Of a DNA stretch of 64,000 nucleotides, positions 9,851 through 62,085 are shown one piece after another. The translations under genes and the position numbers were made by a program. Under the pieces are notes generated by a model. That model saw only the letters and a list, made by a program, of their open reading frames with translations. It was not told the origin of the DNA and ran no database searches. Position 1 is the first letter of the stretch; every line of letters begins with the position of its first letter. The DNA lies in the NCBI RefSeq assembly GCF_019649055.1, contig NW_026570461.1, positions 1-64,000 on the forward strand, written 5' to 3'. Source of the DNA: Paramacrobiotus metropolitanus (taxonomy: Eukaryota; Tardigrada; Eutardigrada; Parachela; Macrobiotidae).

Positions 9851-10560
9851 TAACCTGGATCCCACCGCTGTCCACAGTAGTACCCGGACAATTTTTTTGC
9901 AGGTACACATTTTTGGAGTAGCTTTTGTCAGGTACATCCGGGAATTTAAATAAACTGGGTGGAAAACGTAATCAACAAAATTACCTAGGTGTGATTGTTT
10001 CAATAAGGCGACTGCCGCCAATTGGAACTTTATAATCATATTTCCGTCAAATTCTAATTTATTATAGTAATAATATTATTTAATATAATTCGGAAATGGG
10101 CAAACTAAAAGTTTCGCTTCTCGTTCAGCCTCCAAATTCACTTACCTTTTCAAACAAATTTGTAAAAACGTTAAAGGTTTTTATAAAATTGGCTGAAGTT
10201 AACTTTTGCAAGTATCTGTAGTGAACACTAGTGCCTCGAATCCCGCTAAGGTAATTTTTTTTCATTCGCACTGAATTTATCTAAGAGCAGACAAATTTTT
10301 CGAAGAGATAATGTTAATCACGCTCTGGAGTCTGGACGGCTACAGAGCACCATGATATTTTGTTCAGCCGCCCGGTAGAATAATGCAGTGCACCGAATAA
10401 ATATCACCACCTTTTAATACACCTATGGCACGTTTTCTACACGTCAATTTTTTGGAAAGCTAAATCCTGCCTGCTGTTTGCTGAGCCCCCGGTTGACGTC
10501 TGTTGTCCGCCTGTAACCTTCCAGTTGGCTTGGGCCCTCTGTCCACGCATTACCCTTCTT
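9851..10560. other. no gene seen
   Basis: AT-rich unique-looking sequence leading into the minisatellite. Open frames here are short and carry no recognisable domain. Confidence 0.4.
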
Positions 10561-10561
10561 C

Positions 10562-13500
10562 TCTGTCGTTATCCTCCGTTGTCTTGCGTTGTCCATCCGT
10601 TGTCCGCCGTTGTGCACCCGTTGTCCTCCGTTGTCTTGCGTTGTCCACCCGTTGTCTTGCGTTGTTCATCCGTCGTCCTCCGTTGTGCTCCCGTTGTCCC
10701 CCGTTGTCTTGCGTTGTCCACCCGTAGGCTTGCGTTGTCCACCCGTTGTCCTCCGTTGTTTAACCGTTGTCTTGCGTTGTCCATCCGTTGTCCTCCGTTG
10801 TGCACCCGTTGACCTCCGTTGTCTTGCCATGTCCACCCGTTGTCTTGCGTTGTCCTCCGTTGTGCACCTGTTGTCCTCCGTTGTCTTGCGTTGCCCACCC
10901 GTAGTCTTGCGTTATCCACCCGTTGTCCTCCGTTGTCCACCCGTTGTCCTCCGTTGTTCACCCGTTGTCTTGCGTTATCCACCCGTTGTCCTCCGTTGTC
11001 CACCCGTTGTCCTCCGTTGTTCACCCGTTGTCTTGCGTTATCCACCCGTTGTCCTCCGTTGTCCAGCCATTGTCCTCCGTTGTTCACCCGTTGTCTTGCG
11101 TTATCCACCCGTTGTCCTCCGTTGTCCACCCATTGTCCTCCGTTGTTCACCCGTAGTCTTGCGTTATCCACCCGTTGTACTCCGTTGTGCACCTGTTGTC
11201 CTCCGTTGTCTTGCGTTGCCCACCCGTAGTCTTGCGTTATCCACCCGTTGTCCTCCGTTGTCCACCCGTTGTCCTCCGTTGTTCACCCGTTGTCTTGCGT
11301 TATCCACCCGTTGTCCTCCGTTGTCCACCCGTTGTCCTCCGTTGTTCACCCGTTGTCTTGCGTTGTCCACCCGTTGTCCTCCGTTGTGCACCCGTTGACC
11401 TCCGTTGTCTTGCCATGTCCACCCGTTGTCTTGCGTTGTCCTCCGTTGTGCACCTGTTGTCCTCCGTTGTCTTGCGTTGCCCACCCGTAGTCTTGCGTTA
11501 TCCACCCGTTGTCCTCCGTTGTCCACCCGTTGTCCTCCGTTGTTCACCCGTTGTCTTGCGTTATCCACCCGTTGTCCTCCGTTGTCCACCCGTTGTCCTC
11601 CGTTGTTCACCCGTAGTCTTGCGTTATCCACCCGTTGTCCTCCGTTGTCCACCCGTTGTCTTGCGTTATCCACCCGTTGTCCTCCGTTGTCCACCCGTTG
11701 TCCTCCGTTGTTCACCCGTAGTCTTGCGTTATCCACCCGTTGTACTCCGTTGTCCACCCGTTGTCCTCCGTTGTTCACCCGTTGTCTTGCGTTATCCACC
11801 CGTTGTCCTCCGTTGTCCACCCGTTGTCCTCCGTTATCCACCCGTTGTCCTCCGTTGTCCACCCGTTGTCCTCCGTTGTTCACCCGTTGTCTTGCGTTAT
11901 CCACCCGTTGTCCTCCGTTGTCCACCCGTTGTCCTCCGTTGTTCACCCGTAGTCTTGCGTTATCCACCCGTTGTCCTCCGTTGTCCACCCGTTGTCCTCC
12001 GTTGTTCACCCGTTGTCTTGCGTTATCCACCCGTTGTCCTCCGTTGTCCACCCGTTGTCCTCCGTTGTTCACCCGTTGTCTTGCGTTATCCACCCGTTGT
12101 CCTCCGTTGTCCAGCCATTGTCCTCCGTTGTTCACCCGTTGTCTTGCGTTATCCACCCGTTGTCCTCCGTTGTCCACCCGTTGTCCTCCGTTGTTCACCC
12201 GTTGTCTTGCGTTGTCCTCCGTTGTGCACCTGTTGTCCTCCGTTGTCTTGCGTTGCCCACCGTAGTCTTGCGTTATCCACCCGTTGTCCTCCATTGCCCA
12301 CCCGTTGTCCTGCGTTGTCCACCCGTTATCTTGCGTTGTCCACCCGTTGTCCTCCGTTGTCCACCCGTTGTCATCCGTTGTCCACCCATAGTCTTGCGTT
12401 ATCCACCCGTTGTCCTCCGTTGTCCACCGTTGTCTTGCGTTATCCACCCGTTGTCCTCCGTTGTCCACCCGTTGTCCTCCGTTGTTCACCCGTAGTCTTG
12501 CGTTATCCACCCGTTGTCCTCCGTTGTCCACCCGTTGTCCTCCGTTGTCCACCCGTTGTCTTGCGTTGTCCACCCGTTGTCCTCCGTTGTCCACCCGTTG
12601 TCTTGTGTTGTCCACCCGTTGTCCTCCGTTGTCCACCCGTTGTCTTGCGTTATCCACCCGTTGTCCTCCGTTGTCCACCCGTTGTCCTCCGTTGTTCACC
12701 CGTAGTCTTGCGTTATCCACCCGTTGTCCTCCGTTGTCCACCCGTTGTCCTCCGTTGTTCACCCGTTGTCTTGCGTTATCCACCCGTTGTCCTCCGTTGT
12801 CCACCCGTTGTCCTCCGTTGTTCACCCGTTGTCTTGCGTTATCCACCCGTTGTCCTCCGTTGTCCAGCCATTGTCCTCCGTTGTTCACCCGTTGTCTTGC
12901 GTTATCCACCCGTTGTCCTCCGTTGTCCACCCATTGTCCTCCGTTGTTCACCCGTAGTCTTGCGTTATCCACCCGTTGTCCTCCGTTGTGCACCTGTTGT
13001 CCTCCGTTGTCTTGCGTTGCCCACCCGTAGTCTTGCGTTATCCACCCGTTGTCCTCCGTTGTCCACCCGTTGTCCTCCGTTGTTTAACCGTTGTCTTGCG
13101 TTGTCCATCCGTTGTCCTCCGTTGTGCACCCGTTGACCTCCGTTGTCTTGCCATGTCCACCCGTTGTCTTGCGTTGTCCTCCGTTGTGCACCTGTTGTCC
13201 TCCGTTGTCTTGCGTTGCCCACCCGTAGTCTTGCGTTATCCACCCGTTGTCCTCCGTTGTCCACCCGTTGTCCTCCGTTGTTCACCCGTTGTCTTGCGTT
13301 ATCCACCCGTTGTCCTCCGTTGTCCACCCGTTGTCCTCCGTTGTTCACCCGTAGTCTTGCGTTATCCACCCGTTGTCCTCCGTTGTCCACCCGTTGTCCT
13401 CCGTTGTTCACCCGTTGTCTTGCGTTATCCACCCGTTGTCCTCCGTTGTCCACCCATTGTCCTCCGTTGTTCACCCGTAGTCTTGCGTTATCCACCCGTT

Positions 13501-13812
13501 GTCCTCCGTTGTGCACCTGTTGTCCTCCGTTGTCTTGCGTTGCCCACCCGTAGTCTTGCGTTATCCACCCGTTGTCCTCCGTTGTCCACCCGTTGTCCTC
13601 CGTTGTTCACCCGTTGTCTTGCGTTATCCACCCGTTGTCCTCCGTTGTCCACCCGTTGTCCTCCGTTGTTCACCCGTTGTCTTGCGTTATCCACCCGTTG
13701 TCCTCCGTTGTCCACCCGTTGTCCTCCGTTGTTCACCCGTTGTCTTGCGTTATCCACCCGTTGTCCTCCGTTGTCCACCCGTTGTCCTCGGTTGTCCACC
13801 CGTTGCCCACCC
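10562..13812 (-). repeat. minisatellite I, GTTGTCC(A/T)CC family, about 3.25 kb
   Basis: Tandem 10- and 11-bp half units (GTTGTCCTCC, GTTGTCCACCC, GTTGTTCACCC, GTTGTCTTGC, GTTATCCACCC) are organised into a higher-order unit of about 63 bp. Because 63 is a multiple of three and the unit lacks stop codons, several frames on both strands stay open for hundreds of codons (for example a PPVVLRC-type protein on plus and a GQRVDN-type protein on minus). These are artefacts of periodicity: no start context, no splice context and both strands equally open. The same family appears in the opposite orientation at 20.77-21.66 kb. Confidence 0.95.
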
Positions 13813-13815
13813 TTT

Positions 13816-14380
13816 GTGAGAATTACAGATCTGTACTGCAGAAAAATAATTGCTGTTACAGAACAGAGACAAGCGAAACCGTTTTTTATCCTTCCAATGC
13901 TCACTATCCGACAGGGTGGGACTTGGATTTCTCGGTTCAGTTATGAAAAAGTTTAATTATGAAAGGGAATTTTTAATGTGCCTGTACTGACCATAGGTCA
14001 CTGGCGGTGACTTGGGTGTTTAGCAACACCATTGGGCGTAGACAGTCCTAATCGTGAATTGTTTAGTTCTGTAATAATTCGGCGAACAACAACTGACGAT
14101 AACAAAAACGTTCATCGTATAGTCCATAACGAGGACTTCAAAACAAGGGCATTGCAGTGGTCGAAAAAGCCGTTTGTGCGCTGCAACGTCCGGTTCGGGA
14201 GTTATTTGTGAAAAAAAATTCCAAAAGTTCAAACGCGTGGCGGTAAACCAAAACTCTCATAATGGCCGATGCTCTTCGAATTTTGCACGAAAGCACACAT
14301 TACTATGAAGGCCGTTTTGGCACAGAACTAGCTTTCCACAATTTTTTTCAAATTTCAAAATGAAGTTCAAAAATTGATCT
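13816..14380. other. repeat-derived spacer
   Basis: No gene. Positions about 14,130-14,340 resemble one arm of the long-TIR element at 36.35-37.34 kb (shared CGTTTGTGCGC, CATCCGGTTCGGGAGTTAT-like and AAATTCCAAAA segments). Confidence 0.5.
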
Positions 14381-20330: not shown

Positions 20331-20770
20331 GCTTTCTAAGTTGCTGTACATATAAGTCGAGACTTTTCTTTCACCATGATTAATTTTCGAACGCTTTTAA
20401 GACCTATTTTGTGGCATGCCATAATTGAGAAAAAGTCAAAAAAATCTGTGTCTTCGGTGTGAGGCTTCTGTCAGTGTTTTAGGTGGCAGGAGTGTGGGGT
20501 GCGATTTTCATGGTTTCGAATGCGGCCTTCGCATAACCTCGCACCTTTTCTGGTTCAAATGTGGCCGTTCTTAGGCCTAGCACTTAAATGTCTGTGGTCG
20601 CCGATGCCATATCAGGGAGCAACCGATTTTCTTATTTCTGGTTTTGATACTGTTCCCAGACCACATCCACCCCGATACTCGCATCTAATCTCGTTATATG
20701 AGCTCTTACTCTGTTTTCGCCGCAATATTCCAACCGGCTTAAAAAATAATTGTGGAAGAAATTTTAGTAT

Positions 20771-21660
20771 CAACGCAAGACAACGGGTGGACAACGGAGG
20801 ACAACGGGTGGGCAACACAAGACAACGGGTGGACAACGCAATACAACGGGTGGACAACGGAAGACAACGGGTGGACAACGCAATACAACGGGTGGACAAC
20901 GCAATACAACGGGTGGACAACGCAATACAACGGGTGGACAACGGAGGACAACGGGTGGACAACCCAAGACAACGGGTGGACAACGCAAGACTACGGGTGG
21001 ACAACGCAAGACAACGGGTGGACAACGGAGGACAACGGGTGAACAACACAAGACAACGGGTGGACAACGCAAGACAACGGGTGGACAACGGAAGACAACG
21101 GGTGGACAACGCAATACAACGGGTGGACAACGCAATACAACGGGTGGACAACGCAATACAACGGGTGGACAACGGAGGACAACGGGTGGACAACCCAAGA
21201 CAACGGGTGGACAACGCAATACAACGGGTGGACAACGGAGGACAACGGGTGGACAACGCAAGACAACGGGTGGACAACGGAGGACAACGGGTGGACAACA
21301 CAAGACAACGGGTGGACAACGCAAGGCTACGGGTGGACAACGCAAGACAACGGGTGGAAAACGGAGGACAACGGGTGGGCAACACAAGACAACGGGTGGA
21401 CAACGCAATACAACGGGTGGACAACGGAAGACAACGGGTGGACAACGCAATACAACGGGTGGACAACGCAATACAACGGGTGGACAACGCAAGACAACGG
21501 GTGGACAACGGAGGACAACGAGTGGACAACGCAAGACAACGGGTGGACAACGCAATACAACGGGTTGACAACGGAGGACAACGGGTGGACAATCCAAGAC
21601 AACGGGTGGACAACGCAATACAACGGGTGGACAACGCAGGACTACGGGTGCACAACGGAG
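20771..21660 (+). repeat. minisatellite II, ACAACGGGTGG family, about 0.9 kb
   Basis: Regular 21-bp units made of ACAACGGGTGG plus ACAACGCAAT, ACAACGGAGG or ACAACGCAAG. It is the reverse complement of the 10.56-13.81 kb array family. The period equals seven codons, which keeps several frames open on both strands (QRVDNG-type on plus, PLSTRC-type on minus); these are not considered genes. Confidence 0.95.
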
Positions 21661-21824
21661 GTATTTTGTATGGGTGTACAAATTTGTATTTGCACCCATA
21701 CCACCCATTTGCACCCATTTGTGTAAAATTTGTATGGGTGCACAACGGAGGTGCCATATTGTGTAGTCCATATTATGGACTACACAAGGACATTAATCTA
21801 CACGGCAGAACTCAGTAATACCAA
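21661..21824. repeat. TTTGTATGGGTGCA inverted/direct repeat at minisatellite edge
   Basis: GTATGGGTG(T/C)ACAA occurs at 21,669 and 21,737, with CACCCATA complements between them, and GCACAACGGAGGT appears on both sides (21,650 and 21,740). Confidence 0.6.
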
Positions 21825-46539: not shown

Positions 46540-47735
46540 TCAGCGCTTCTGCTTGTCCAGTGGATCCACCGTCTTCCATTCGTACTCGTAATCGAAATCC
46601 ATCTTGTCCACTTCCGACGTGGGCATTGTCGCTGCGGTGTTGACGGAATCCGTATTGACCGGACCACTGGCACCTGAACGCAAAAAAATCCATTAAGGGG
46701 CGCTCAGTAAGTTGTGCCGCTTGTACAAATCATGGTTACGTAAATCTATTTGAAAGACATAAATCAGCAGCCCATTGCCATACTGGACTACCAAAATGGT
46801 ATTTTCAAATGTCGTTTAATCAGTACAAAAATACTGCGACGATATGTCATTATAATCAGTACGAAATTACTGTGAGGAAATACTAATTACCGCACTATAC
46901 CGCTACTGACCTTTCGGCAAAACGGTTACGTGGTACGCTGGTCCAAGCCGCAATATGCAACCTGTTGAGTCCGCGACGTTGTGCCGACACTGACCGAGAT
47001 ACACACAGCCGTACACGCCCGCGTCAGTCGACTGGGTGGCTCGAATCAACAACTCTCCAGGAGCCGACAAACCGTCAACCGCAACATTGTGACCCGTTGT
47101 TACTATTAGTCGTTTCCCCGCCCGCAAATACTGTTCAGCCAGGTTCTGGGTGTCTTTACTCCAAAAGTACGTGCTCCACTCCCGCACCACATTGTAGCCG
47201 GCGTCGAGGCGGTAACCGTCGGCGGCATCTTCCAGCGGGCTGCACTGCAGTTTAACCAGTTCACCCTCTTTAACGTATATCTTCTCTGCCGATGCCCAGT
47301 GATCTGTTGCTGCAAAACTCACAGTCTGTTAGAACTCGTACATTTAGGCAGTAAACCTGCCATTATAAACTAAACTGAAGGTTGAATCCTGTAAATTTAT
47401 CAGTTAACGAACGGCGGCCCTTTTGTCGCTTGCACAATATTATAGTTAAGCGGAAAACATCGTAAAATCAAGCTCATTAATTAAGTTCTCTTTTCGCCGT
47501 TACCGTTGGAAACGGCGGGAATGAAGCAGTGAACGAGGTACTTCTCGTAATCGAAGCAGTCGTAAGGTAACTTTGCACAGTAATCGTTCCAGCACTGCAC
47601 TACGGCGTTGTTATCGGACTCTTGTTCCCATGGCGGAAGCGCTGCTGGAACAGGCAACGCCAGCACACTCGGCGGACCACGCAGCGTCCATGGAACGAAG
47701 ATTACAAACAAGCAGGATAATAACGAACACACCAT
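46540..47735 (-). CDS. Ig gene A: secreted single-Ig-domain protein
   Basis: Exons 47,735-47,504, 47,309-46,911 and 46,673-46,540 on minus, all introns phase 1, 254 residues. Exon 1 encodes a signal peptide (MVCSLLSCLFVIFVPW) plus a Cys-bearing segment (CWNDYCAKLPYDC ... YLVHCF). Exon 2 encodes one V-like Ig domain: LVKLQC ... TYFWSKD ... STDAGVYGC, with an extra Cys pair after the F strand (YLGQCRHN ... STGC). Exon 3 is a short acidic tail (EVDKMDFDYEYEWKTVDP) ending in KQKR. No transmembrane helix. The start was chosen because it gives a signal peptide and the same exon layout as genes B and C; a longer upstream open frame exists but adds an improbable second hydrophobic stretch. Likely a secreted recognition or matrix protein; function unknown. 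Confidence 0.75.
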
Positions 47736-48748
47736 CGTCAGTACTTGTACAGCTATAGTTCTATTCTGCAAGATTCTGTATCGGTGCTCTGCAGTAATTC
47801 GTAACTGGGATATTTCTCGACACGTCAATGTCGTCAAATATATCAACGCAGTTCTAATGCAGAGCAGAGTTAATACAATAGCGGACGCCACAAGTGATGC
47901 CGGTAGTACCCAATCCATGGAAGAATGCTTGAATTCAGGGAGAACATGCGACGCATGAAAGGCAAGGCAGCGAATAGAAACCACTCTGTTGCGACGTGCT
48001 GCGTTCGATTTTTACAATTGTTGCTTGCTGTTCATCTTCTTTACTTTACTTTTCGAATCTATGAAGACGTTGGGTGGGAGCACACAATGAAAGGAATGTG
48101 GCTGTGCGCCAGGACAGCAAGACAATGGTTGTGGACTGGTGTGAATTCGAATGGAGTCGTCTGGTTCTGTAGACTCTAAAATTTGCCGTTGATGTGAAGC
48201 TATCTTAAACGGAATTAGATAAATAACATGTCCGCATAATATGTTAACCCGGGTAGATCATTAATCTGCGCATACGCGTTTGATTATTACCATTTGAATG
48301 CCCGTTGTAATATGCAACGCTTCATAAATTGATAGAGCGTACGCGAATATATGGGATTATGCAAATAGTTTGTAGCTGACTTTGTACAGCCATCGGGAAC
48401 GACCATAATATTATCTGACTGAAAACGAACGAATAGAGTAACGATATTACAGATACATGACAAAAATGTTTAATTATACCGTGCATGGATCGACTAGAGT
48501 ATTCATTATTTTAAAGAATGAGTTATAAGTTTAGTCCGTTCTCCGTAGAGATTAATTATGCCACGCAGCCACAGTACTTTAGCAGCTATCGTAAGTGTGC
48601 ATGTCCACGTCTCACAATTCATATTTAATCAGATTATGTATCTGTATCATATGAGAATTAAATGGAGACCAATCCGTTATCCAGTTATCTACACAGCAGT
48701 TATCCACACAGCAACAGGTGGTTGGGAAACCGGAAGTGTGGCTCCAGA
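47736..48748. other. intergenic between Ig genes A and B
   Basis: Short promoter-containing spacer for gene A on minus. No additional gene is supported. Confidence 0.4.
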
Positions 48749-51563
48749 TCAGACCGCGTGCTTGCGTTTGCGCTTGAATGGCGGACAGGGACAGTTGCCG
48801 GTGCAGGCCGGACACTCGGGCGGGTACATGGTGTGGCGGCGCTGATCCGATGGCACCCAGTCGAACTCGGTAACCTGCTCTGCATCTTCCGCTTCTGACG
48901 TCGGCGTTGCCGGCGCGATGGTTGCCATCAGGTTCCCCGCGGATGTCGGCAAAAGCGGTGAACCGGCATCAGTGGCTGTAGAGGAGTGGATAAAGCCTGA
49001 TTGTTTTTCACCTACACAAATTGAGCAATCACAGGTAAGAAGGCAGATTATTCACGCTATTACGCTGCCTCATAGTTCTGCTATAGTAATATGCAGAGCA
49101 GAAAAATTATACAAATTCCGCATCTAAACTTTGGCTGGCTATGGAAGACAAGATGTATCCTTGAAAGTACAGAAAGCTGCCTACAGAAGCTTTCGTAGTT
49201 AGTAGCTGATGACACAGTACAAAGCTGTGGTAGAGAAAATTATTTTTGAAATCAGTACAGATATGATTACCTATTTCGTGCAGTTTTCGCGCCACCGCAG
49301 CCGCCCGTTCGGTCTCCCCTCCAGGGGCTTTTTTGGCTATCTCTTCGTCTTGGTCGAATCCTTCATCTTGTTTGTCACCTGTCAGCTCTCGACTACGACC
49401 CGCCATAGTTGTCTCCACCGCCTGAGGGACGGTGGTCAGTGATCGAAGCGTGGTCAAAACAGCTGCAGTCTTGCCAGCAGCCGTCGTTGTCGTCTCTGGG
49501 ATGATGTCCACGTCATCCTTATTGTAAGTTACGGATTTTGCTGGGAAGACGAAATAATCACGTTTAAAAAATGGTAAACAATTGAAAAAAACAAAAAGCT
49601 GAAATACAGAAATTGACTAGAAAAACTGGTTTCCTTGAAAAAAATTTTTAAAAAAAGAAAACATAAACAGATGTCTATCGCACTCTTGATGCAAATAAAA
49701 ATAATCATTGTACAACCGTTTTTCATAGTACACTCTAGAACCGTTTTTCATAGTACACTCTAGAATAGAACAGAATAGTACGAGAACGTAGAATAGTACT
49801 TGCTTGTTATCAGCGAGAGTGAACCGGTGTTGTTGATATCTTCCACCGTGCTCGAGTAATCCACAGCGGTATCGTTCGATAACTTCGATGGTGTGAATGG
49901 CAGTATCGTTTCTGGTTCAAGTAGCAGATTTGTGGTTGTGTCTGTACTGGTCGTCAAGGTGGTACTAATGACGGTAGGCGTTGAGTCCAGGCTGGCTTCA
50001 GCTAAAGTTAAAGAGCTGCAAAATTAAATTCCGTCAAAACTTTGTAACTAACGAACTACTGCATACCTCGAGAAAAAGCGCTAAACGCTGTTGCCGCCAA
50101 CGTGATGCGCGCTGCTGAATTCGTAGCGACAGATGCAGCCGATGCCGTTGTTAGCTGCGTAGTGGATTCCTTAGCAATTGTTCTCTGCGTTGCTGTAAAA
50201 AAATTTTAAAAAAATGTTTACAGCAAATGTACTGATTGTGTAATATTTAAATATTAACATTATTATCTCAAATATGTTGGTCTGTTTATCAGAAATACTG
50301 TACAATTTGACAAATCAGAATATAAGATAAGTCATCTGCCTGCGCAAAAATTAAATTTTCTGACAAAATGAAGGCGCGTCAACGAAACTGCAATTCGTAG
50401 AACTGAAGGAACAGTAATAAATTAGAAAAACTGAAATAAATGGAAGAATTTTTAAAACGATGGTAAACGGTGCAACCTACCGGTGGATGGTGACACGAGA
50501 AGCCGGAATCTGCCACCTGGGCGATAATGGCAGAAACCGTTGTACTCGGACTGGTACACGCATTCGGCGATATAAGTGCACGCATAGACGCCTGCATCAG
50601 CCGGTGACACGTTCTGGAAAACGATGGTCTCACCCGCGACGCAGGTGGCGACACGGTCGCTGCACGACCGATGCACGACGCGGTCGTCTTTGGTCCAGAT
50701 GTTGGTGGCGCTGGGGATTTGGCGCGTCCAGCGATGGGACCGGGCTACCGGTCGGGGCGGCGGCGCTGCGTAGCGGTATTTCTGCTGACCGCCCAACGGC
50801 TGGCAGTTGCTGGACAGATAACTGTTCTCCACTACCTTCGTAGTTGCAATATCTTCCTGTGATCGATCTGGAACATTATTCTCTTAATTTATTTAATGCC
50901 CAGACTAATCGATTTACTAATTTTTAAAAAAAAGCTGTTAACAGCTGCTTTAGCAGCTGCTTAATATCGTAGTACGTTGTATATGCACATTAGCCAACTA
51001 AACCAGTACGAGGCAAGCGGCAACTCTTTCCCATCGCTTTAGTAAATTTTATCACTTTCCCCGCTGCATCTTTCCGTGTGCAGGCGCTCACGTGATACTT
51101 GATTTCAGCCGTTTCACGTCTAAACCGCCTTGCAGCTATAGTTGATTACGCAGACTGATAAAGAATATAGCGAAGAGGACGGCAGGTGAGATTTTATCGC
51201 CGGCTAAGTAAGCGCTGATTAGAATGGTGAATAGATACGATATCACGTGAGCGCCTGCACACGGGTAAGATGCAGCGGGGAAAGTGATAAAATTTACTAA
51301 AGCGATGGGAAAGAGTTGCCGCTTGCCTCGTACTTAGGAAACTTGGAAAATTAATCGTATTCATGCTCAGACGCTACTAGTAAAAGAATCGCACCTTGGG
51401 AAACTCGTTCGGCGAAGCAGTACATTCCGTTAAGCCACGGATTGACGGTGTGACGCGTGTCCCAGTGAAAATCGGGACAGAGCAAAACCGCAGGCAGCTG
51501 TCGTGGGCAACATTGAACCAGCGCAAACAGAAACATGAGAATGTTTTGGTACAACCAGCGCAT
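48749..51563 (-). CDS. Ig gene B: secreted Ig-mucin protein with Cys-rich basic tail
   Basis: Six exons on minus: 51,563-51,395, 50,867-50,481, 50,192-50,067, 50,001-49,804, 49,540-49,271 and 49,011-48,749; all introns phase 1; about 470 residues. Exon 1: signal peptide (MRWLYQNILMFLFALVQCC) and Cys segment ending GMYCFAERVSQ. Exon 2: Ig domain (NSYLSSNCQP ... NIWTKDD ... SPADAGVYACTY ... AECVYQ ... GFCHY). Exons 3-5: Thr/Ser/Ala-rich, mucin-like, exon 5 ending in a charged helix-like part (DQDEEIAKKAPGGETERAAA). Exon 6 ends VTEFDWVPSDQRRHTMYPP, ECPACTGNCPCPP, KRKRKH. Intron 4 uses a GC donor (A|GCAAGT). No membrane segment, so probably secreted and O-glycosylated. Paralogue of gene C, which lies head to head. 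Confidence 0.8.
49731..49767. repeat. tandem duplication in gene B intron 4
   Basis: ACCGTTTTTCATAGTACACTCTAGA occurs twice back to back (quoted core TTTTTCATAGTACACTC), just beyond the donor of exon 4. Recent slippage or duplication. Confidence 0.8.
51006..51333. mobile_element. MITE with about 90-bp near-perfect TIRs in gene B intron 1
   Basis: GTACGAGGCAAGCGGCAACT at the left is matched in inverse at the right end (CCGCTTGCCTCGTAC). The arms run about 90 bp with very few differences (one at CTTTCCGTG versus CTTACCCGTG). The outermost GTAC is palindromic, so the target duplication cannot be separated from the TIR. No coding sequence. High arm identity suggests recent mobility or gene conversion. 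Confidence 0.8.
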
Positions 51564-52929
51564 TTTAAAAAGTCCAAGCAATATAAACGCGATAAACCTA
51601 AGGCTAAGTTAAACTGTTTAAATTAGAGCTGTGCTGTAAAAATTGATTAATTCCTAGTGAAAAATGCGGTTTCTATTTTCGAACCAAAATTATCCGGAAA
51701 AATGTATAGCAGACGAAATGACGTGCACATGTTTCGAACGCGCCGTCGCCCCGAATGGATCGCACGAGCAGTGATCGCAAATCATCGCATTATCTGTGCG
51801 CTGGTTCGGTGCCAAAAAGTGTGTCACTGAAATCCCAAAACCCGAATTAAGGTAGCACTGCTGCCTAAAATAATCCCAGGTGCACTGTGTGACTGTTTAT
51901 TGTTACCTTTTGATTCGAGTCAATAGTTTAAATTTAAATAGAAAACATTTAAACGTTTTCAGGCGCCGAGTAGCCATACCGTGTCATACCGTGTCATGTA
52001 CAGAAACAAATCATCCGATATCCAGCACAATTCAAGTCGAGTATGAAATAAGTACATTTAACTATGTGCAAGTGTTTTAATTTTACGGATACTTACGCCG
52101 CAAGTAATAAGTATTCCTTTATATGGCATATGTACAGAGCGTACTGTAAACCAAACGTGCTGTAAATCCTTTAATCGCAAGTATGCTGCAAAGTAGCGCG
52201 ACAATAGTCTAGTGATTAGCAATTATTACCAAAAAGCGAACCACTCTAGAAAACACATGTATGTACAGTATAAGCCACTTGTACCGGGTTTATTAAATTA
52301 TTACCCCTAATCCTTAACTTCATCGCGCGGGTATTAACGTTAATTGCATCTTTAAAAACGTCAGTGTTCTCCGGTTAGTAGTGTCAACTTAGAACGTGTT
52401 CGTCATTCGTCAACAGAACCAAATGTATACGTTGTTGATTGTTGTATATACATGTGTTTTTAATTGATAATAATTATAATGTCGCAGATTAAATTTGGTT
52501 ATATAGCGTACTATACACTGTACAGCCCATACAGCTACCTAAAAATTCGAATGTCCTGTTGTATGGAATGTGAACGCATTCCTGCGCTTTGTGCTCCAGC
52601 CCTGCCCACAGAGTTGTATTATACCGAACTGGCCACGTGAACACCGTTCTTATGCCATTTCGATTTATGCCAGCTTTTATGCGTAGAATCTGAATATTAC
52701 ACTGTACGATAGCCATTTTTTGCATCACAAGTCACAACAGACCTGGCCCAGGCATATATATACCCGTTAATATCCTTCCGACGTGTTTATTAAGCTGCAA
52801 CCCATCGTAAATTTTCCATCATTGCTCTCATTGTGGGAAAAGCATAATAAAGAAGCTGTGAAGCAGCCAGTTTTCCTTGTAGACTATTTGTAGTGTGGAT
52901 ACCAGAGATTCTGCTCTGGGGTTAAATCC
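51564..52929. promoter_or_regulatory. divergent promoter region between Ig genes B and C
   Basis: 1.37 kb separates the two divergent start codons. CATATATATACCC at 52,753-52,764 is a TATA-like box about 170 bp upstream of gene C's start. Because TATATATA is palindromic it could equally serve the small minus-strand frame at 52,489-52,722. No further elements were identified by eye. Confidence 0.35.
52489..52722 (-). CDS. possible small gene, unrecognised
   Basis: An open frame of about 76 codons on minus (…NTTLWAGLEHKAQECVHIPY … CMGCTVYSTLYNQI) begins about 35 bases below a TATATATA box in the right orientation. No signal peptide. The VTLW/GxxC/Ser-V-like spacing is faintly reminiscent of beta/gamma-crystallin strands but is not convincing. 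It may be a chance frame in the shared promoter region. Confidence 0.2.
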   Translation of the reverse strand, partial: QKMAIVQCNIQILRIKAGINRNGIRTVFTWPVRYNTTLWAGLEHKAQECVHIPYNRTFEFLGSCMGCTVYSTLYNQI

Positions 52930-55900
52930 ATGGATTGCGGGAACCAAATGATCGTCTTGTATCTGACGCTGCTGGCCGTGCTCTTCCGTGTCCCGTGCAA
53001 CGAAGCGTGCGCCCGTTCCCCACGCTACCGCAACGAAGTGTACTGCCCCGAAAACAACGCGCTGGGAGGTGGAGAATGTGTGATCGAGTACTTTGCCCAA
53101 CCTGCAAGTATGCTGGCTCTGCTAACAAATTTTGTTTGTTTTTAATAATATTTTTATTTTGTTTTTAATATTTATTTTACCTTTTATATACTGTAGTGAG
53201 TGTATCGGCTCGAATTCGCTCGATCAAGTGGCACCACAGAGTTGGTGTACAGGAAAACCGCACACATTCCGCGTGTGCATGCTCATGCGCTCGCAAACAC
53301 GAACAGCGCATACTTTGCAAGTGCTGATTTCCCGTACACAAACTCTGTAGTGCCAGTCGATCGAGCCGCTACAGTATCTTATATGCCATTTATTATAATT
53401 TATTTTTTTCTTCATCTTTGATTTTCCTGGGAGATTTTATTACCGTTTTTATTTCCACTTCGTCGTCGTTTTCTTCTTAATTTTTTAGCTGCATCCTCTA
53501 ATAGAATTTGTTTGTTATTATTCAATCCGAAAACATAGCCGTTTTTAATTATCTATTGAATTTTGGCGTTTGACGCAAGGCGAACGCTAAAAGGAACAAA
53601 GCGCCGTGCGTGGGCCAATGTCAAAAGGAGGAAGGAAATTTTAGAGGAAGGAAATTTTGTGTGGTCAAAAGGAGGAAGGAAATTTTTCGGGTCAAAAGGG
53701 GGAAGGAAAGTTTCACAAAATTTCAATGGTATAATAAATTTTTTTGACGAATGAAATTTTTATAACCGGTAGCGTTTCGAAACATGTGGAACCGTTTTCC
53801 ACGAAAAAGAACAAGAAATTCAAATCAAAAACACGAAACAACAAAAAATTATGAAAAAACAGACGCACAAAAAGCAAGAGCATCGCTTTTGCTTAAAGAG
53901 CGCTTTTGCTTAAGACAATTGCTTATCCTCCGAATTGTGAAAACCAAAATACTGTATGTAAATACCACAGAAACATTTTTGCTTATGCCGTTCGTAACTT
54001 CGTGCGTCTTCATCGCCGCTATCATCGTAAGTATCATAACCTTCCATGTTGCTGCTAGATGACTGTACCGTTTTGTAGAAAAATAAAAAGGAAATGTGTA
54101 TAATTCTATGCATAGCCATAAACTGCCCATAATGCGCTCCCTTCCGCACCCACATAGACTACAGGCACCCCTTTTCTTGACGATCTAACATGGCCTGATC
54201 TAGCCATGTTAGATCGTCAAGAAAATCTTTGTAAACTAAAAAGACTGGTAAAAACCTTTGTCAGTCCTCTGGGGAAAAAACTAAAAACAGGTGCCCATAT
54301 TTCGCGGAAAAAAATGCGGTGAGAATTAAATAATACAAAAGGGTTAAACCGGACGCAAAAGGCAAAAGGGGCACCTATAAGAAATGCGGGTAAAAGGGGT
54401 GCTGATCGTCTCACCCAGTTAAAATCTTAATAAAACAATTAGTTTTTCATTTTAAGTACTTTTCTAAGAATTGCACAACGATACCCTTTACGAAGCAAAA
54501 TGTTTCTTGAGAAATGATGCTTTGCGCCAAATGCACCCATGTGCGTCGCCGCTTTTGCTCGTCCACCGGCTAGACTGCAGCCGTCAGCTGCGTCGGTCTG
54601 AACATGGGAAAGCTTGGTTGTTTTGAAGAGTTTCAAAGGAATCAGACAAGATCACACTTCGGTGGCATCGTAAAGCACACTCGTTGTGGCTAGATGGATA
54701 AACCTTCGGGTTTTGAAAGATAGTCTACATCGAGCGCGGTTTGGACTTAGATGGGTGACCACTCTGAGTTCAGGCTGCGAGTGCACGGCCCGCAAGGCCT
54801 GTGTGCGAAGTGCTTGGCTGAGGCAGCAATACCACCACGGAGACGGGCACGGGAGATGGAGGATCACAATAGAAGCTTTGGGCAAAACACACCATATCCA
54901 TCTGTTAACCATCTCTTATCGCATAACGTAAGGTTATGGTAAAATACTGGTATTCGTGATTGGGCTGAGTCACTTTTAACATAGCACTTCTCCAACCTAT
55001 ACAAAGTTCCTGCTTCTAAAAGTGTTAAAGTAATAAGATCTTCCCGTTTTTTTCATTCAAAAACTGCAAAAATTTATGAAAATGAAGTTTATTTATCTTT
55101 TTCTTCTTTACAAACGAAAGTTAATCTCCCGGCGAAAGTTTCTTTTGCTTCTTTGTGTGTTGAAAAAGCGAAAACTGCGATATGACTGGGTCCCTTTCGC
55201 TTTTAACCCAAGCGTCTTCACTGAAAAAGAAAGCTGGCGATATTTCCGTTTTACGATGTCCGAAATCGAAGACCTCCGAAAGCGCCTGATGATACCTGAC
55301 GTCGTGATTACAGCAAAACGTGAGCGTGCTTCTGGGATAGAGGCTCTGTGCATCTTGTTGCGTCGCCTTGTGTATCCTTCTCGATGGATTGATTTAAGGA
55401 TGTTTTTTGGACGGTCCGAAAGCAGTTTATGCCGTATATTTATGTGGATGTTAAATCACATCGACAAGACATTCCGATGGCTGCTGGAAGAGTGGAACCA
55501 GGACTGGCTTTCCGAAGACGATTTTCTCACGTTCGCAGGCGCCGTCGCTGCGAAAGGTGGTGTGTTGCGCGGATGTTTTGGGTTTCATCGATGGGACAGC
55601 ACGGCCTATCAGCCGCCCTAAATTTTACCAGCGGCAGTGCTTCGGTGGCCACAAACGCCACCATTGCTCGAAATGGCAAGCCATTCTGCTACCAAACGGC
55701 ATGATTTGTAGCTTATATGGTGGACACCGCGGATCCATGCACGACAGCACTCTTTTGACCGCGAGCAAAGTTTTGGACGCACTGCAGCAGAAATTCACGA
55801 CGTTTGATGGTCCCGAAAGGTTTGCCTTTATGGTGACTCGGGCTAAGGAAGAGGGGACCTCGTGAAGAAACCGTTCTCGAAAGTAGAAGTCATGAATGAC

Positions 55901-58900
55901 CGCCGTAAAAAATTGTTAAATAAGGGCTATGTCTCGGGTAAGGGAGCCTGTTGAATGGGGCTTTAAAGAGGTTGTTTCTAAATTCGCGTTTCTTGATTTC
56001 AAAAAACAAATGCGAATGTATGTTAATCCCATAAACAAGTTGTACCGCGTAGCTGTTATACTTATTAATTGTCATAACTGTCTGCATCATAACCAAGCAA
56101 GCAAGTATTTCGATTTAGAACCGCCTAGCCTGGATGAATACCTGATAACTTTGAATGATTAAAGCTGCATTATTCTTCCTTTTGTTTTATTGAAAATCTG
56201 GTAGACAGTTGGTACACAATTTACAGGAGCTAATTATCCGCCACACATTTTCTCTTTCAGTGCAAGTTCACGCTCTCTGCAGGCAATTTCCCGTTCCTGT
56301 AAATCAAGTTCTCGCATGCGTATGGTGTATTTACGCTGATCTTCTGCAGTGCGCAGTTCTTTTTCCAGCTCCATTTGTTTTTCTTTTAGTTGTTTCTCTT
56401 GTTCCATCTCCTTTTCTTTAAATTCGCGCGTCTGTTGTAGTTCTTTTTCCTTCAGTTTACATTTAAATTTATCGCCCTCAGCAATGGCTTTGACCGCTTC
56501 CATTTCAGCTGACATTTTGGGAGCTTTGGCTGGGCGGACGCGCTTCTGTCGCAATCGTCGTGCAGCCTTCTCACGTTCGAATTTTTCAGGGTCGAAATCC
56601 GGCTTTTGCATAGCAGCTTCTTCTTCGGCTGCAGAATCCACCCACATGTCGTCGTCCGACCTGTCGATATCACCCGAAACACTGGAAGATGGGAGACGGT
56701 AATCAGCCAAATCGTCGGTGCGTTTCTTTTTCGAGAACGTCGCCTCTCCAGCGCTCTGAATAGCCGCAGTTTCTGCGTTCCGTTTCTGGGCCTCCAACAC
56801 CTTCTGCTGCTTTTTCTGCTCACTCAGGGCCAGGGCATCACGCTTGCTCGCAGACAGAGAGGAAAGCGCTGACTCGATGCGGCCGAAAATTTCTTCCGTT
56901 CCAGTTCGGACTAGATTGCGTAGGTCCTGTTTGATGTAATATTCTACCAATTTGTCCACACGCGTCTGACAAGCACGATCAGTCAGTGGCGCATTGAATT
57001 TCTACATATAGAACACATAGATAAGCACATTCCGCACTGGACCGCAGTATGATAGCAAACTAAATCTCACCTTCGTGGCATTGAGATTTTCGGCGATCTT
57101 TTCCCAGCATTCCCTAGGATTCCGAGCTGCATACGGGTTCTGTTCGCTAGCCTCTTCCACCAGTAACAAATCCTGAGTTGACGTGAAACGATTTCGACGA
57201 TTCTTCGTGGTAGACTGGGCAAGATCTTCTGAGGCCTCCATTTTAAAACAGTTATAAAATGATGAAGATCTTAAGTGCAGCAAAATTTTTTAGTGACGTT
57301 AAAATTTAAATGTCAAAAAACACTTGTTGCTTGCGGTGTGGTAGCCCGCCACGGAGGTGGCAGTACACAAAGTACTGCAGCTGCAGCGCGCAGTTGGCTT
57401 TTTGGTGTCCTCCGATTTATTTTTTTCTTTCGTTCTGTGTAGTTTGTATATCCACACTTACACTTTAACCATACAGTATGGTTTAGAGCCCTTGCTCGGC
57501 TCGGCTCTGTCGGCGCTCGCGAGCACTTCGAGCGAGCAGGCGTCGTTTTGCGAATTTGCGAACTGAGCAATAGAAAAATTGCGAGCGAGCCGAGCGAGCG
57601 GGATGGTCGGGTGCGAGCGATCGCGAGCCAGGCTGACATTGTGCGAACTGGAAGTTTCTGTACAAAATTACATTGACCGACCTGAAACGATCTTAAACCA
57701 CCGTCACCTTCGCGCTTCGCGCGAATTGATTTATTTACTAACTTTCCTAGACCGGTTGGGACGCACGACTAAATTTTGATATTTTGTACTCGTAGCCAAC
57801 AAAAACATTATTTGACGGGTTTATGAATCAGTTGAATGATTTCTAAGAAAGGTGCATTTTAATTTTTGAGCATTCTATTATACGTATTTAATTCAGGCCA
57901 AATTAAGAAAACTACATCCAGTTGAAAATTAGAGAAATGTATTAGCAAAAAAATGAAAAGCTAATGATACGGACTACCAGTATGGAGATATAAGTGATTG
58001 TCTCTGAACATCCAATTACACTTATGTTAGTTATGTACTGAGTTTTTGTGTTGGTGAAAAGTTTGGTATAATTAATTCGTGCAAAAATTGATACGTAAAT
58101 TTTTGCCGATCTTACGAGCGAGCCGATTTAAAAATAAAATTACGAGCGAGTTGAGCGAGCAGAAGCAAATAAAATTGGAAAACGAGCGAGTTGAGCGAGC
58201 GGTGGTTTGGGCGCGAGCGAGCTGAGCGAGCAGGAAGTTTAAAAAAGCAGAAACGAGCGAGTTGAGCAGCACTTTTGCTGCTCGTGCAGGGCTCTAGTAT
58301 GGTTAAGTGTATGGCTATGGTTAAGCGGAGCGTTTGCCCAAAGCTTCTAATACCACCCTGGCTACTCAGTAACGGCTTGGACTGAAAGGCCTGTGATGTC
58401 CGCAGCACCAGTCGTGCCAAATGGAAGGAGACAGGGAGATCAGTCGAAGCAGAGGATTGGCGCCTTCCCTAGAGATGTGCTTGCTGTCTACCTGTTTAGA
58501 ATTCTCTTAGTCTGGTTCTGTTGAACGTCTTGCTCTGCCCGAGCCGGTTAGCGCCACTGCGCGTTAAAATAAAGCTGGCGCTCGCGTTTGCGAGCTGCTG
58601 CATACGATCTGTCTGTTGCAGTGTTATAGCCTCCATTGTAACTCTGCGTGAATGAATTACCGTACTTTGCACAAAATGTTCTGTCTGTCACCTGATTAAT
58701 GCATTGCTGACCATGTAAACCGAGCCGTTTTCGAAACAACTAGCCGCATAAAGCAATCGCAAAGTACCGGCTGTGTTTTTTCAAACATTTGCCTGTCCCT
58801 TACTCAGTCTTCATGCGCATTGCCCGGTACGGTAAAATGCATTATTACATATTTCTCAGGGTTCGTATTAATCGTATCAAATACAGAAGTTGTAAGAAAC

Positions 58901-61900
58901 TTTAATGTAACAAAAACAGATCTTTTTGTATTAATTTTTGTTTTAAACAGATAATTTTTGCCCACAAAAATTTCCTTCCTCTTTTTGACCAGAAAAATTT
59001 CCTTCCTCCTTTTGACCCCCCAAAATTTCCTTCCTAAAAATTTTCCTTCCTCCTTTTGACCACACAAAATTTCCTTCCTCTAAAATTTCCTTCCTCTAAA
59101 ATTTCCTTCCTCCTTTTGACATTGGCCCTGTGCGTGAAATTATCTTACTCGTGCGCAGTCACACCCGTATAACATCAGATGTTCTGATAAATAATACTGC
59201 CACGTACATGCTCCATAATAAATATTTATATTAGGCAGGTACTGTACTATTCCATACTAGGCAGTGCCTAGTAGGCACAGTACTTTCGGTTCATTTATGG
59301 GTACATCACCCAGTTACCAGATAAATCGCTCCCTACATAATATTAAATAGGTCGCACCCCCGTCATCGAAGCGAGCGTAATGGAGGGCTGTCCGCTGGAG
59401 TTGCGTGCGGATTTCTCCACTAGTCCGAGAAAAGAGCTGCCGTACAGTCTCGTCCACGAAGATAACCGGGCCGGGCAGCGGCTGTACCGGATGTGGCGTA
59501 GTCGTCCGCACCAGCCCTACACCTGGACGCGGGACGGGCGCGTTTTCTCTGAATATAACCAGGCCGAGCGTCGCGTGTTCGAATTCCTGGGAGATCGACT
59601 GAAAATACGCTGGGCGACGCGCGACGACGAGGGTACCTATATGTGCGCATTTTATCCTCAACTATCGCGCCCTGTCATGGACCCATCCGTGAGCTATGTA
59701 GGGCTTACCTTTGGAGCCGCCGTTCGCGTGAAGGTTCTGCCCAGATCCAGTGGTAAATTCGCTTGATTTAGTTCTTTTCAGTATTGTTAATTTTTGTTTC
59801 ATTCTTATGCTGCTGATTACTGTTCATTTTGTTAGTAGGTACCTAGTGCATATTGTTGCGGTACCTACTGCTAATATTAATAGTATTAATTATTGGTAAT
59901 TGGCCAGGCGTTGTTTATGGTGCCCGCTAATAATTGTTTACAATGATTGCAAATTAATAGTTTTTAATCCAGGTTGTCAACTTGCTATTAGCAATTATGG
60001 TTGTTTTTTTACATACACAGACTGGTGCAGCGTCCCACATTCCACAACAACGCCAGCGCCGCGCCGGCTGTCGACAACTCAAGCAACTAGCAGCACATCG
60101 TCCCGCATCACCACTTCATCAACCGCCACTACTGTGTTGACCACCGGCTCCTTGCTGACCACTGTATTTCAGCTTTTGCGCACAACGCACTCGCCTGGCC
60201 CGGGTATTTTCAGTGTTTGAGAACGATTAATTAATATCTCGTTTATGCGAAATAGATAGCGTTTTTAGTGCTTTCGAAGCTTCAGATGCAAACGAACTTG
60301 CAAATAGTTAAGAACTAGCAATTATTTTTAAGCAGCTACAATTAAGTACAGCTGTATAGGTACATATTTGTGTGTATTCCCTCGAAATATCAAGAACAAA
60401 ATTCTAAAACCGAAGCAATTAGCTGTGCATGATTTGGATATGTATCTACGTACTTATAACACGAAAAGGCGAACCATTCTCTCCGATGACAATCATCTAA
60501 AGTGCGCAAACTGACGTTAAAGAAAGAAGCTTGAAGTAATGAGGCGTTCAGACGGAGCAGCATGGCCCGTTCACCAAATTCGTGCAGTGCTTCATTACAT
60601 TAATGCACTACATTAATTAATTAATTAACATGCATTAACATGCACTACAATAATTAAACCAAATAATTAAAATACCGCAAAATGCCGTTTTCAGCTCGTT
60701 AAACTAACAAAGGTTTGGTAGATTAGATAAAGCCGTAGATTTTTTTCAGTGTCGACACAATCCTTCTTGCCAGTGAATCGCAGCGGAATTCAGTCAATGA
60801 ATCATCCTGCCGTAGTCACCATTCCAGCCAGAGCGCTACCTAGCACCTTTTCCCCAAATTCTTGGCAGCGGGAAGTAAACGCTACCGCCGCGCTAACGAC
60901 AGGTAAAGCCGTAAAGCCTTATTGGTGCCGGCTGCGTGCCCTCGCCGTACAGGTATCTATCCACTAATATACTATAACCAGGAGAGCAAAACTTTGACCA
61001 ATACAGCAACCATCAGCGCCGCCGCAGGGGCCACCCAATACCGTTTATTACATAGGTCGTTTTTATCCAGTATAACTGAGACATTTCACAATAGAAGCCA
61101 AAGCTGAGATTTTCAGTTACAAGGTTTTCCAATAGTTGTGACGGCCTTGGTGGGAAATTCGACATCAGTAGTCCGCACTGCCTCCTCATCACCGTCGACC
61201 ATTTTACACGGGCCGCCGAAGCCAGTAACCAATTCTACCGCAGTCGATCGAGGTTCACACATTGCCGACACTTTTCTTTGGTCAGGTAACCGATAACGTA
61301 CGATGTCATAAACCGTTCGCCACTGGCTATTTTGCTACCTGGTCTTACAGACTACAACCGTCTGAATTCCACGGCGGTCAATTTGACATCAGATGGTAAA
61401 ATGGATTGTAAAATGGTAAAATGGATATTTTATTTCTGACATAACGGTTTGTCTGTCACTTCAGCAGGACCTATGCTCCCTTCGGCGATGATGGCGGACC
61501 ATGCGGATACCGGTACACCGCTGCCCATTGTTTCCTGCCCAAACACATCAATCTCCACGGCCAACACGGCAGCAGTTGCAGAGACAGTTAATAGCAGTTC
61601 ACTCTCTCCAACGACAGGCAAGTATCAAATTGTTCATCCATAATCCATCGGCAAAGCAAGCATGATTGAAATGAGACATTTTATTGCAAAACCTGAATTG
61701 TCGCTTTGCCCATGCGTCTATCTGTACTTTCGGCGCAATCTAATCTTAACGCAACAATAGCAGGCATCGTAATAGCGTTACTACTCTCTATGCTTACCCG
61801 CAATCTTTTAATTTAACTTGGATAGATGAAAAGCAGCCAGACTTTAGTCACTCCTACCCGGGCACTGTTACCGATTCACCGCTATCATCAACATCCGCGG

Positions 61901-62085
61901 CGGACCTGATGGCGACCATTGCGCCGGCTATGCCGACGACAGATGCAGAGGAAACGGAGGAGGTTACCGAGTTCGACTGGGTGCCGTCGGATCAGCGCCG
62001 CCACACCATGTATCCGCCCGAGTGTCCGGCCTGCACCGGCAACTGTCCCTGTCCGCCGTCCAAGCGCAAACGCAAGCATCTATGA
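52930..62085 (+). CDS. Ig gene C: secreted Ig-mucin protein with Cys-rich basic tail
   Basis: Seven exons: 52,930-53,107, 59,351-59,752, 60,021-60,203, 60,750-60,902, 61,124-61,285, 61,465-61,617 and 61,826-62,085; all introns phase 1; about 496 residues. Exon 1: signal peptide (MIVLYLTLLAVLFRVPC) and Cys segment. Exon 2: Ig domain (VIEASVMEGCPLELRADF ... PYTWTRDGRVF ... RDDEGTYMCAFY ... VRVKVLP). Exons 3-6: Ser/Thr/Pro-rich mucin-like (STTTPAPRRLSTTQATSS and similar). Exon 7: TSAADLMATIAPAMPTTDA, then VTEFDWVPSDQRRHTMYPP, ECPACTGNCPCPP, SKRKRKHL, almost identical to gene B. The exon 6 donor is GC (G|GCAAGT), as in B. Intron 1 is 6.2 kb and consists mostly of nested transposons. Unlike A and B, the Ig domain lacks the extra Cys pair after the F strand. 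Function unknown; the layout suggests an extracellular recognition or matrix role. Confidence 0.8.
54172..54225. repeat. perfect 23-bp hairpin
   Basis: TTTTCTTGACGATCTAACAT plus GGC pairs exactly with GCCATGTTAGATCGTCAAGA plus AAA across the 8-base loop CTGATCTA. Part of a wider inverted arrangement (GGCACCCCTTTT at 54,164 and AAAAGGGGTGC at 54,393). Confidence 0.85.
54690..54865 (+). repeat. 5S rRNA-like / SINE-like sequence
   Basis: TCGAGCGCGGTTTGGACTTA followed by GATGGGTGACCAC resembles the internal control region of 5S rRNA genes (GCGCGGTTAGTACTTAGATGGG...GACC). The upstream half does not look like 5S, and the terminal stem is missing, so a 5S-derived SINE or a 5S pseudogene is more likely than a gene. 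Confidence 0.35.
55076..56161 (+). pseudogene. Harbinger transposase, frameshifted
   Basis: Homology runs through three frames. 55,076 to about 55,585 gives the N-terminal HTH-like part and the start of the catalytic domain. A one-base shift near 55,585 moves to the frame with IDGTARPISRP, KWQAILLPNG and GSMHDSTLL. A further shift near 55,830 and an in-frame TAA after GDSG follow, and another shift near 55,925 leads to REPVEWGF and the C-terminal HHNQASKYF. The catalytic residues of the DDE triad (IDGT, GDSG, VEWGF) are visible, but spread over frames, so no active enzyme is made. Confidence 0.85.
56234..57241 (-). CDS. Harbinger-associated Myb/SANT-like protein
   Basis: Two exons on minus, 57,241-57,071 and 57,001-56,234, phase-0 intron of 69 bp (AAG|GTGAGA ... 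TATATGTAG|), about 312 residues. Residues 10-75 (RNRFTSTQDLLLVEEA ... NPRECWEKIAENLNAT) form a trihelical Myb/SANT-like DNA-binding domain. Residues 85-130 (RACQTRVDKLVEYY) extend the family pattern. The C-terminal 100 residues are a long charged coiled coil (KEKEMEQEKQLKEKQMELEK). In this superfamily the partner protein helps bind the transposon ends and bring the transposase to the nucleus. The frame is intact even though the neighbouring transposase is broken. Confidence 0.8.
57484..58296. mobile_element. hAT-like non-autonomous element rich in GAGCGAGC words
   Basis: 813 bp. Begins TAGAGCCCTTGCTCGGCTCG and ends GTGCAGGGCTCTA. Flanked by the perfect 8-bp direct repeat GTATGGTT (57,476-57,483 and 58,297-58,304). 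Both ends are packed with GAGCGAGC / GCTCGGCTCG motifs (57,490-57,640; 58,100-58,265), probably subterminal transposase-binding repeats. No transposase gene. It inserted into the Harbinger element. Confidence 0.85.
58349..59350. other. gene C intron 1, distal part
   Basis: 58,349-58,960 has no recognised feature. 58,965-59,128 is the right TIR of the outer element. 59,129-59,350 is the residual original intron before the exon 2 acceptor (TATTAAATAG). Confidence 0.5.

Follow-up and report, generated by a model that had tools for sequence, protein, structure and literature searches.

A tardigrade family of single V-set Ig heads on a shared, unrecognised Cys-rich basic tail as a candidate recognition system

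The tardigrade Paramacrobiotus metropolitanus harbors an expanded family of Ig proteins in which single V-set heads are combined with a shared tail that has no match in Pfam, NCBIfam or the PDB, and in which heads and tails have had separate histories. Three members, designated A, B and C, lie in the stretch of 64,000 nucleotides analysed here (the window, part of contig C241). A family protein is made up of a leader with a Cys segment, then a single V-set Ig head, mostly followed by a multi-exon Ser/Thr-rich stalk, and finally the tail. In the reading that we favor, to which we assign a probability of about 0.45, the head would bind a ligand, the stalk would space it, the tail would hold the protein to the matrix, and heads and tails would have evolved separately. 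Judged from the sequence, the family is thus a candidate recognition system. The observations on which we build are its architecture, its copy number, purifying selection on its exons, the homogenisation of its tails and the conflict between its head and tail trees. The family also offers a clean case in which to study how exons bounded by phase-1 introns allow heads and tails to go separate evolutionary ways.

Models of the three genes were built from homology and splice rules, with signal peptides and helices called from hydropathy alone (Table 1). The clustering of three single-Ig genes at 46540-62085, as given in a preliminary description of this DNA, was confirmed by the splice-checked models, which have one Ig exon each and fill the span exactly, from the stop codon of A at 46540 to that of C at 62085. 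The predicted proteins A, B and C comprise 315, 434 and 506 residues, respectively, each with a single terminal stop. In every gene an exon for a hydrophobic leader precedes a single exon for a V-set Ig domain, and B and C additionally have Ser/Thr-rich stalk exons and the Cys-rich basic tail. The introns had been described as exclusively phase 1, and this holds for every one modelled (14 of 14); all end in AG, with 12 GT donors and two GCAAGT donors. The latter are located at 49804 and 61617, one in the stalk of B and one in that of C. These two genes are divergently transcribed, with start codons 1.4 kb apart. Their Ser+Thr share is 34-36% in the stalk versus 11-13% before it. Their tails had been reported as alike and their Ig parts as very divergent; indeed, the last 38 residues are near-identical, and the nucleotide identity is 88% in the tail versus 39% in the Ig exon. 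A hydropathy scan with 19-residue windows found no hydrophobic window in B, and in C only the signal peptide. A C-terminal membrane or GPI anchor was considered for B and C and rejected, as neither model has one.

Table 1. Exons of the three Ig genes and the astacin-domain protease gene (window positions unless a contig is named)
Feature	Position	Strand	Remark
Gene A exon 1	47504..47918	-	two hydrophobic segments (about residues 1-33, 53-81), then Cys-bearing PPWEQE..C..C..C..YL..C leader segment; phase-1 donor
Gene A exon 2	46911..47309	-	V-set-like Ig domain
Gene A last exon	46540..46673	-	short acidic tail ending ...FDYEYEWKTVDPLDKQKR, stop
Gene B exon 1	51395..51563	-	signal peptide and short Cys segment
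Gene B exon 2	50481..50867	-	Ig domain
Gene B Ser/Thr-rich stalk exon 1	50067..50192	-	
Gene B Ser/Thr-rich stalk exon 2	49804..50001	-	GC splice donor
Gene B Ser/Thr-rich stalk exon 3	49379..49540	-	
Gene B last exon	48749..49011	-	acidic linker and conserved tail EFDWVPSDQRRHTMYPPECPACTGNCPCPPFKRKRKHAV; core about 48755-48868
Gene C exon 1	52930..53107	+	signal peptide and short Cys segment
Gene C exon 2	59351..59752	+	Ig domain without FG-loop cysteine pair
Gene C Ser/Thr-rich stalk exon	60021..60203	+	
Gene C stalk exon	60750..60902	+	
Gene C stalk exon	61136..61285	+	
Gene C short stalk exon	61351..61395	+	
Gene C stalk exon	61468..61617	+	GC splice donor
Gene C last exon	61826..62085	+	linker and conserved tail EFDWVPSDQRRHTMYPPECPACTGNCPCPPSKRKRKHL; core about 61969-62082
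Astacin-domain protease gene	1917-3415; paralogue C1:2190.0-2191.7 kb		Pfam E 5.5e-20

Gene A departs from the other members in its first exon, where the reading frame extends a further 92 codons ahead of the Met used by their leaders and contains an in-frame ATG at 47918. From this ATG the exon encodes two hydrophobic segments, one on either side of a basic loop, so a cleavable signal peptide is not its sole hydrophobic segment. A paralogue on contig C1 has the same first-exon layout, likewise with two hydrophobic segments; the remaining 14 members have at most 19 open codons upstream of the leader Met and no upstream ATG. Aligned from the upstream ATG, A and the C1 paralogue keep the frame intact, with gaps in multiples of three. 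In this upstream part dS is 2.3, which is near saturation, and dN is 0.75; frame, start and hydrophobicity are kept. Since the two segments recur in the paralogue, the product of A is probably membrane-anchored rather than simply secreted, and their position around a basic loop makes an N-out, loop-in, Ig-out topology likely. The preliminary description, in which all three proteins were secreted and a membrane anchor would count against the proposal, therefore stands in this respect for B and C, where none was found, and fails for A, where an N-terminal one is likely. The last exon of A is weakly similar to the B/C tail and has neither its cysteines nor the KRKRKH end; in A and its C1 paralogue, an N-terminal membrane anchor would take the place of holding by a tail of the B/C type. 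An astacin-like protease gene is located 43 kb from A in the window and adjoins the A paralogue on C1, the two astacins being 60% identical. As the pairing of A with an astacin gene recurs at C1, this part of the locus has been duplicated and rearranged between the two places.

The genome (169.8 Mb in 533 contigs) was searched for the C-terminal module and the Ig exon, as had been proposed, and both recur on other contigs. The family comprises at least 16 modelled Ig heads, A, B and C included, and about a dozen tails on nine contigs; the queries were single sequences and one consensus, by which distant members may be missed. With the tail as query, tblastn gave 14 matches genome-wide, of which 12 had E ≤ 3.2e-6 (C241, two; C99, six; C321; C136, two; C155). 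Queries with a consensus Ig head and with the head of A added C1, C14 (three), C155 (two) and C61, as well as pieces on C138. At other loci, too, leader and Ig exons are found in the same splice phase; together with the tail matches, this means that the shared modules are not due to chance. In the exon upstream of the heads, a hydrophobic leader is succeeded by a Cys segment and a phase-1 donor, many copies reading ...PPWExEPYxSRxxxC...LLCLINxLT. A long leader type is found on C99, in A, on C1, C136 and C155 and in one C14 gene, and a short type in B, C, C61 and two C14 genes. C99 has a tandem array of five family genes at 173-207 kb. The proposed family of extracellular Ig proteins, with its conserved and unrecognised tail, is supported and is expanded within the genome; our literature search found nothing on it. 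In-frame stops were found in the C136a, C136b and C155 copies, and the tails are disrupted in the 302-kb copy of C99 (302-304 kb) and on C14; taken together, the copies on C136, C155, C99 (302-304 kb), C14 and C138 have in-frame stops, frameshifts or missing exons. Such broken copies could reflect a birth-and-death process, and single cases could be assembly errors. The family would evolve through gene duplication, the decay of copies into pseudogenes, and head and tail exons that follow histories of their own. A tandem repeat at 193.4-194.8 kb of C99 lies inside the gene cluster, and each of its units offers a phase-1 exon-like reading frame.

The heads belong to the V-set Ig superfamily by their predicted beta sandwich and their C, W and DxGxYxC signature, the B-strand Cys being displaced in gene C. 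A Pfam V-set or Ig_3 match was obtained for all nine heads scanned, including A, B and C (best E 1.3e-6, mostly under the curated cut-off). An AlphaFold head model made from the three window sequences, which has a mean pLDDT of 55 and at this low confidence informs on fold class only, matches V-set domains, SIRP and TIM-4 among them, with TIM-4 (5dzn) at rank 7 of the fold matches. An IL-1-receptor-like head, an idea taken from the LW..DxGxYxC pattern and the extra Cys, was dropped because IL1RAPL1 and IL-36R ranked below generic Ig matches.

A variable part of the head is the FG loop, the position of CDR3 in antibodies. Across the 16 heads its columns are almost unconserved, and those of the framework are far more conserved. 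Past the F strand, 14 of 16 heads have a pair of cysteines, which is absent in C and C99_4. The first is located six residues past the F-strand Cys in 13 heads and nine residues past it in C99_2, the second directly before the G strand, with 3-12 residues between them. A disulfide across this pair is plausible from its placement, and the head, with a loop of variable length between two extra cysteines, would most likely bind a ligand. Loops vary in any Ig family, and a variable FG loop alone is no proof of ligand binding.

The tail of B, C and their kin reads DQRR..PPECPxCTGNCPCPPxKRKRKH, with four Cys and a basic end. Across nine copies its core is ..D..P.DQRR....ppECP.CtgNCPCP..KRkRkhl, upper case marking invariant residues. 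The preliminary description had named a known widespread domain in this module as an outcome against it; the tails of B and C have no match in Pfam, NCBIfam or PDB. Since the protein also has a leader, six consecutive basic residues suggest that it binds polyanions. The tail of B, C and their kin would most likely keep these proteins, once secreted, attached to polyanionic material outside the cell, and it may link copies by disulfides; the stalk, probably O-glycosylated, would keep the head at a distance.

We estimated dN/dS per exon, also proposed beforehand, by maximum likelihood within the C99 cluster. Omega forms a gradient from the leader exon (0.45-0.50) over the Ig exon (0.34-0.37) to the tail, where it is lowest (0.22-0.24). 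All three exons are under purifying selection, and no positive selection was found in any of them, all values being below 1. The suggestion that the tail is constrained and the Ig and stalk evolve fast is therefore borne out for the tail; purifying selection acts on the Ig exon as well, and the contrast between B and C is not one of rate alone. These findings bear on the possibility that the family encodes reproductive or structural matrix proteins (of the egg envelope, the seminal fluid or the cuticle), with stalk and Cys/basic tail serving assembly and the head as a species-specific binding site. A mucin-like stalk and a four-Cys tail with a basic end would suit matrix assembly, and clusters of male-biased genes have been described in P. 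metropolitanus, a species with separate sexes (PMC11191345), but nothing in the sequence points to the gonads and positive selection was not found; we consider this explanation rather unlikely.

Several known systems come close to the family. In the vertebrate TIMs, as in B and C, a mucin-like stalk (glycosylation predicted for B and C) carries one V-set Ig head. TIMs are type I membrane proteins, whereas B and C have no transmembrane helix with a cytoplasmic tail and end in the basic Cys tail. The FREPs of Biomphalaria glabrata are secreted multigene Ig proteins as well, with an N-terminal Ig head or heads, a spacer and a conserved C-terminal module, and gene conversion has been reported for them (PMC7588048). 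However, a FREP ends in a fibrinogen domain and has a coiled-coil spacer, whereas the tardigrade proteins have a single Ig head, a Ser/Thr-rich spacer and a short Cys-rich basic tail, and the tail exons of B and C are without a Pfam match. The SmPoMucs of Schistosoma mansoni resemble the family as multigene modular secreted mucins with gene parts homogenised by gene conversion (PMC2576457), but lack an Ig domain and vary in their tandem repeats. The Drosophila Beat proteins are extracellular and combine an Ig head with a C-terminal Cys-rich region (PMC9743010); they differ in having two N-terminal Ig domains (A, B and C have one Ig exon each), a cystine-knot-like region, a potential transmembrane stretch and no mucin stalk. 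For comparison with the Cys-rich region of Beat, the tail offers CxxCxxxCxC only, with no profile or structure match. The architecture is intermediate between FREPs, TIMs and Beats and fails one defining feature of each. Its new part is the tail; otherwise it is a V-set Ig family of a known kind.

An alternative is neural or developmental cell recognition in the manner of Drosophila Beat, in which secreted or surface-held Ig heads would bind membrane Ig partners in trans. The PDB profile matches of the head are mostly neural Ig proteins (contactin, Robo), and Beat has a Cys-rich region after its Ig domains, to which the tail may be comparable. Such generic Ig matches are unspecific, however, and wiring molecules would not usually have one Ig instead of two and a mucin-like stalk, or come with several pseudogenes and with copies scattered over the genome; we take this role to be unlikely. 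If the family proved to be neural or structural, it would be of no more interest than other Ig families that have simply expanded.

The separate histories of heads and tails are seen in synonymous sites and in trees. Between B and C, synonymous differences amount to 11/44 (0.25) in the tail versus 54/82 (0.66) in the Ig exon (Fisher p 1.4e-5), and between C99_3 and C99_4 to 6/32 (0.19) versus 46/79 (0.58; p 1.5e-4); C99_1 and C99_2 have no such contrast. The tail codons of B or C reach a dS of 0.81-0.96 against C99_1 (0.96 for B). The low synonymous difference between the B and C tails, in codons that diverge in other pairs, indicates that the tails have been homogenised or the heads replaced, and the tails are alike partly through a shared recent history. 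In the alignment of the last exons of B and C, DNA identity increases from 45/60 at the start to 57/60 near the end and drops after the stop codon. In the tail tree, B pairs with C (100/100), and the pair falls into a group with C99_1 and C99_5 (94/93) that excludes C99_2 to C99_4. In AU tests, for which the groupings were named after the tail tree of the same genes had been seen, the heads rejected the group of B, C, C99_1 and C99_5 (p 0.011 for Ig, p 0.0024 for leader plus Ig), and B and C as sisters by Ig alone were not rejected (p 0.25). With C and C61 excluded, the head of B groups with two C14 heads (97/96). As the heads of B, C and C61 are on very long branches, their exact placement is unsure. 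The rejection of the tail grouping by the heads means that heads and tails have different histories and have been exchanged or converted separately; either tails were overwritten by gene conversion or heads were replaced. The uniform phase-1 introns would make such separate evolution of head and tail exons easy.

An explanation with no exchange or conversion would treat B and C as a recent inverted duplicate with a strongly constrained tail and heads driven apart. It is consistent with the lowest omega being that of the tail, with the close head-to-head placement of B and C, and with the AU test, in which B and C as sister Ig heads were not rejected. However, a recent duplicate of a whole gene predicts like synonymous divergence in tail and head, which is at odds with the B-C values above; synonymous sites of the tail are free to change, as their dS of 0.8-1.0 in B/C against C99_1 indicates; and the heads reject the tail grouping. 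This explanation is therefore weakened, and we judge it improbable. Still more doubtful is a role of the basic tail as a nuclear signal, or as a peptide that is processed by cleavage at the invariant DQRR, which would release four Cys and the KRKRKH end: RR is kept in 9/9 aligned tails and a C-terminal part of Drosophila Beat has been found in nuclei (PMC9743010), but B and C have no membrane helix beyond the leader, leaving a secreted tail without an evident route to the nucleus, and the degraded copy C136b has lost one R.

Returning to the favored reading of a ligand-binding head on a matrix-binding tail, its boldest extension is a germline-diversified humoral Ig repertoire of tardigrades, with diverse V-set heads, each with a cysteine-framed FG loop of variable length, repeatedly re-paired with the shared matrix-binding Cys/basic tail by phase-1 exon exchange or gene conversion; we rate this version as a long shot. 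Most homologues of the Toll and Imd pathways, and NF-kappaB, were not detected in tardigrades (PMC7056985), which makes an immune reading of the family worth testing and does not directly support it. For the recognition of microbes, or of one another, by tardigrades, a V-set family with variable FG loops would be a concrete candidate.

Mobile elements and repeats were also observed in the window. The 6.2-kb first intron of gene C contains a transposon at 53612-59128 with inverted-repeat ends (47 nt 100% and 94 nt 90% complementary). Within it, a reading frame at 55455-55865 matches the DDE_Tnp_4 nuclease (E 3.9e-12), and the opposite strand has a weak Myb/SANT match; the transposon looks like a PIF/Harbinger element. 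In the first intron of gene B, a palindromic element at 51005-51334, with two 71-nt arms that are 99% complementary and 188 nt between them, looks like a MITE. Long minisatellite-like tandem repeats at 10384-13956 and 20463-21818 have several frames open on both strands.
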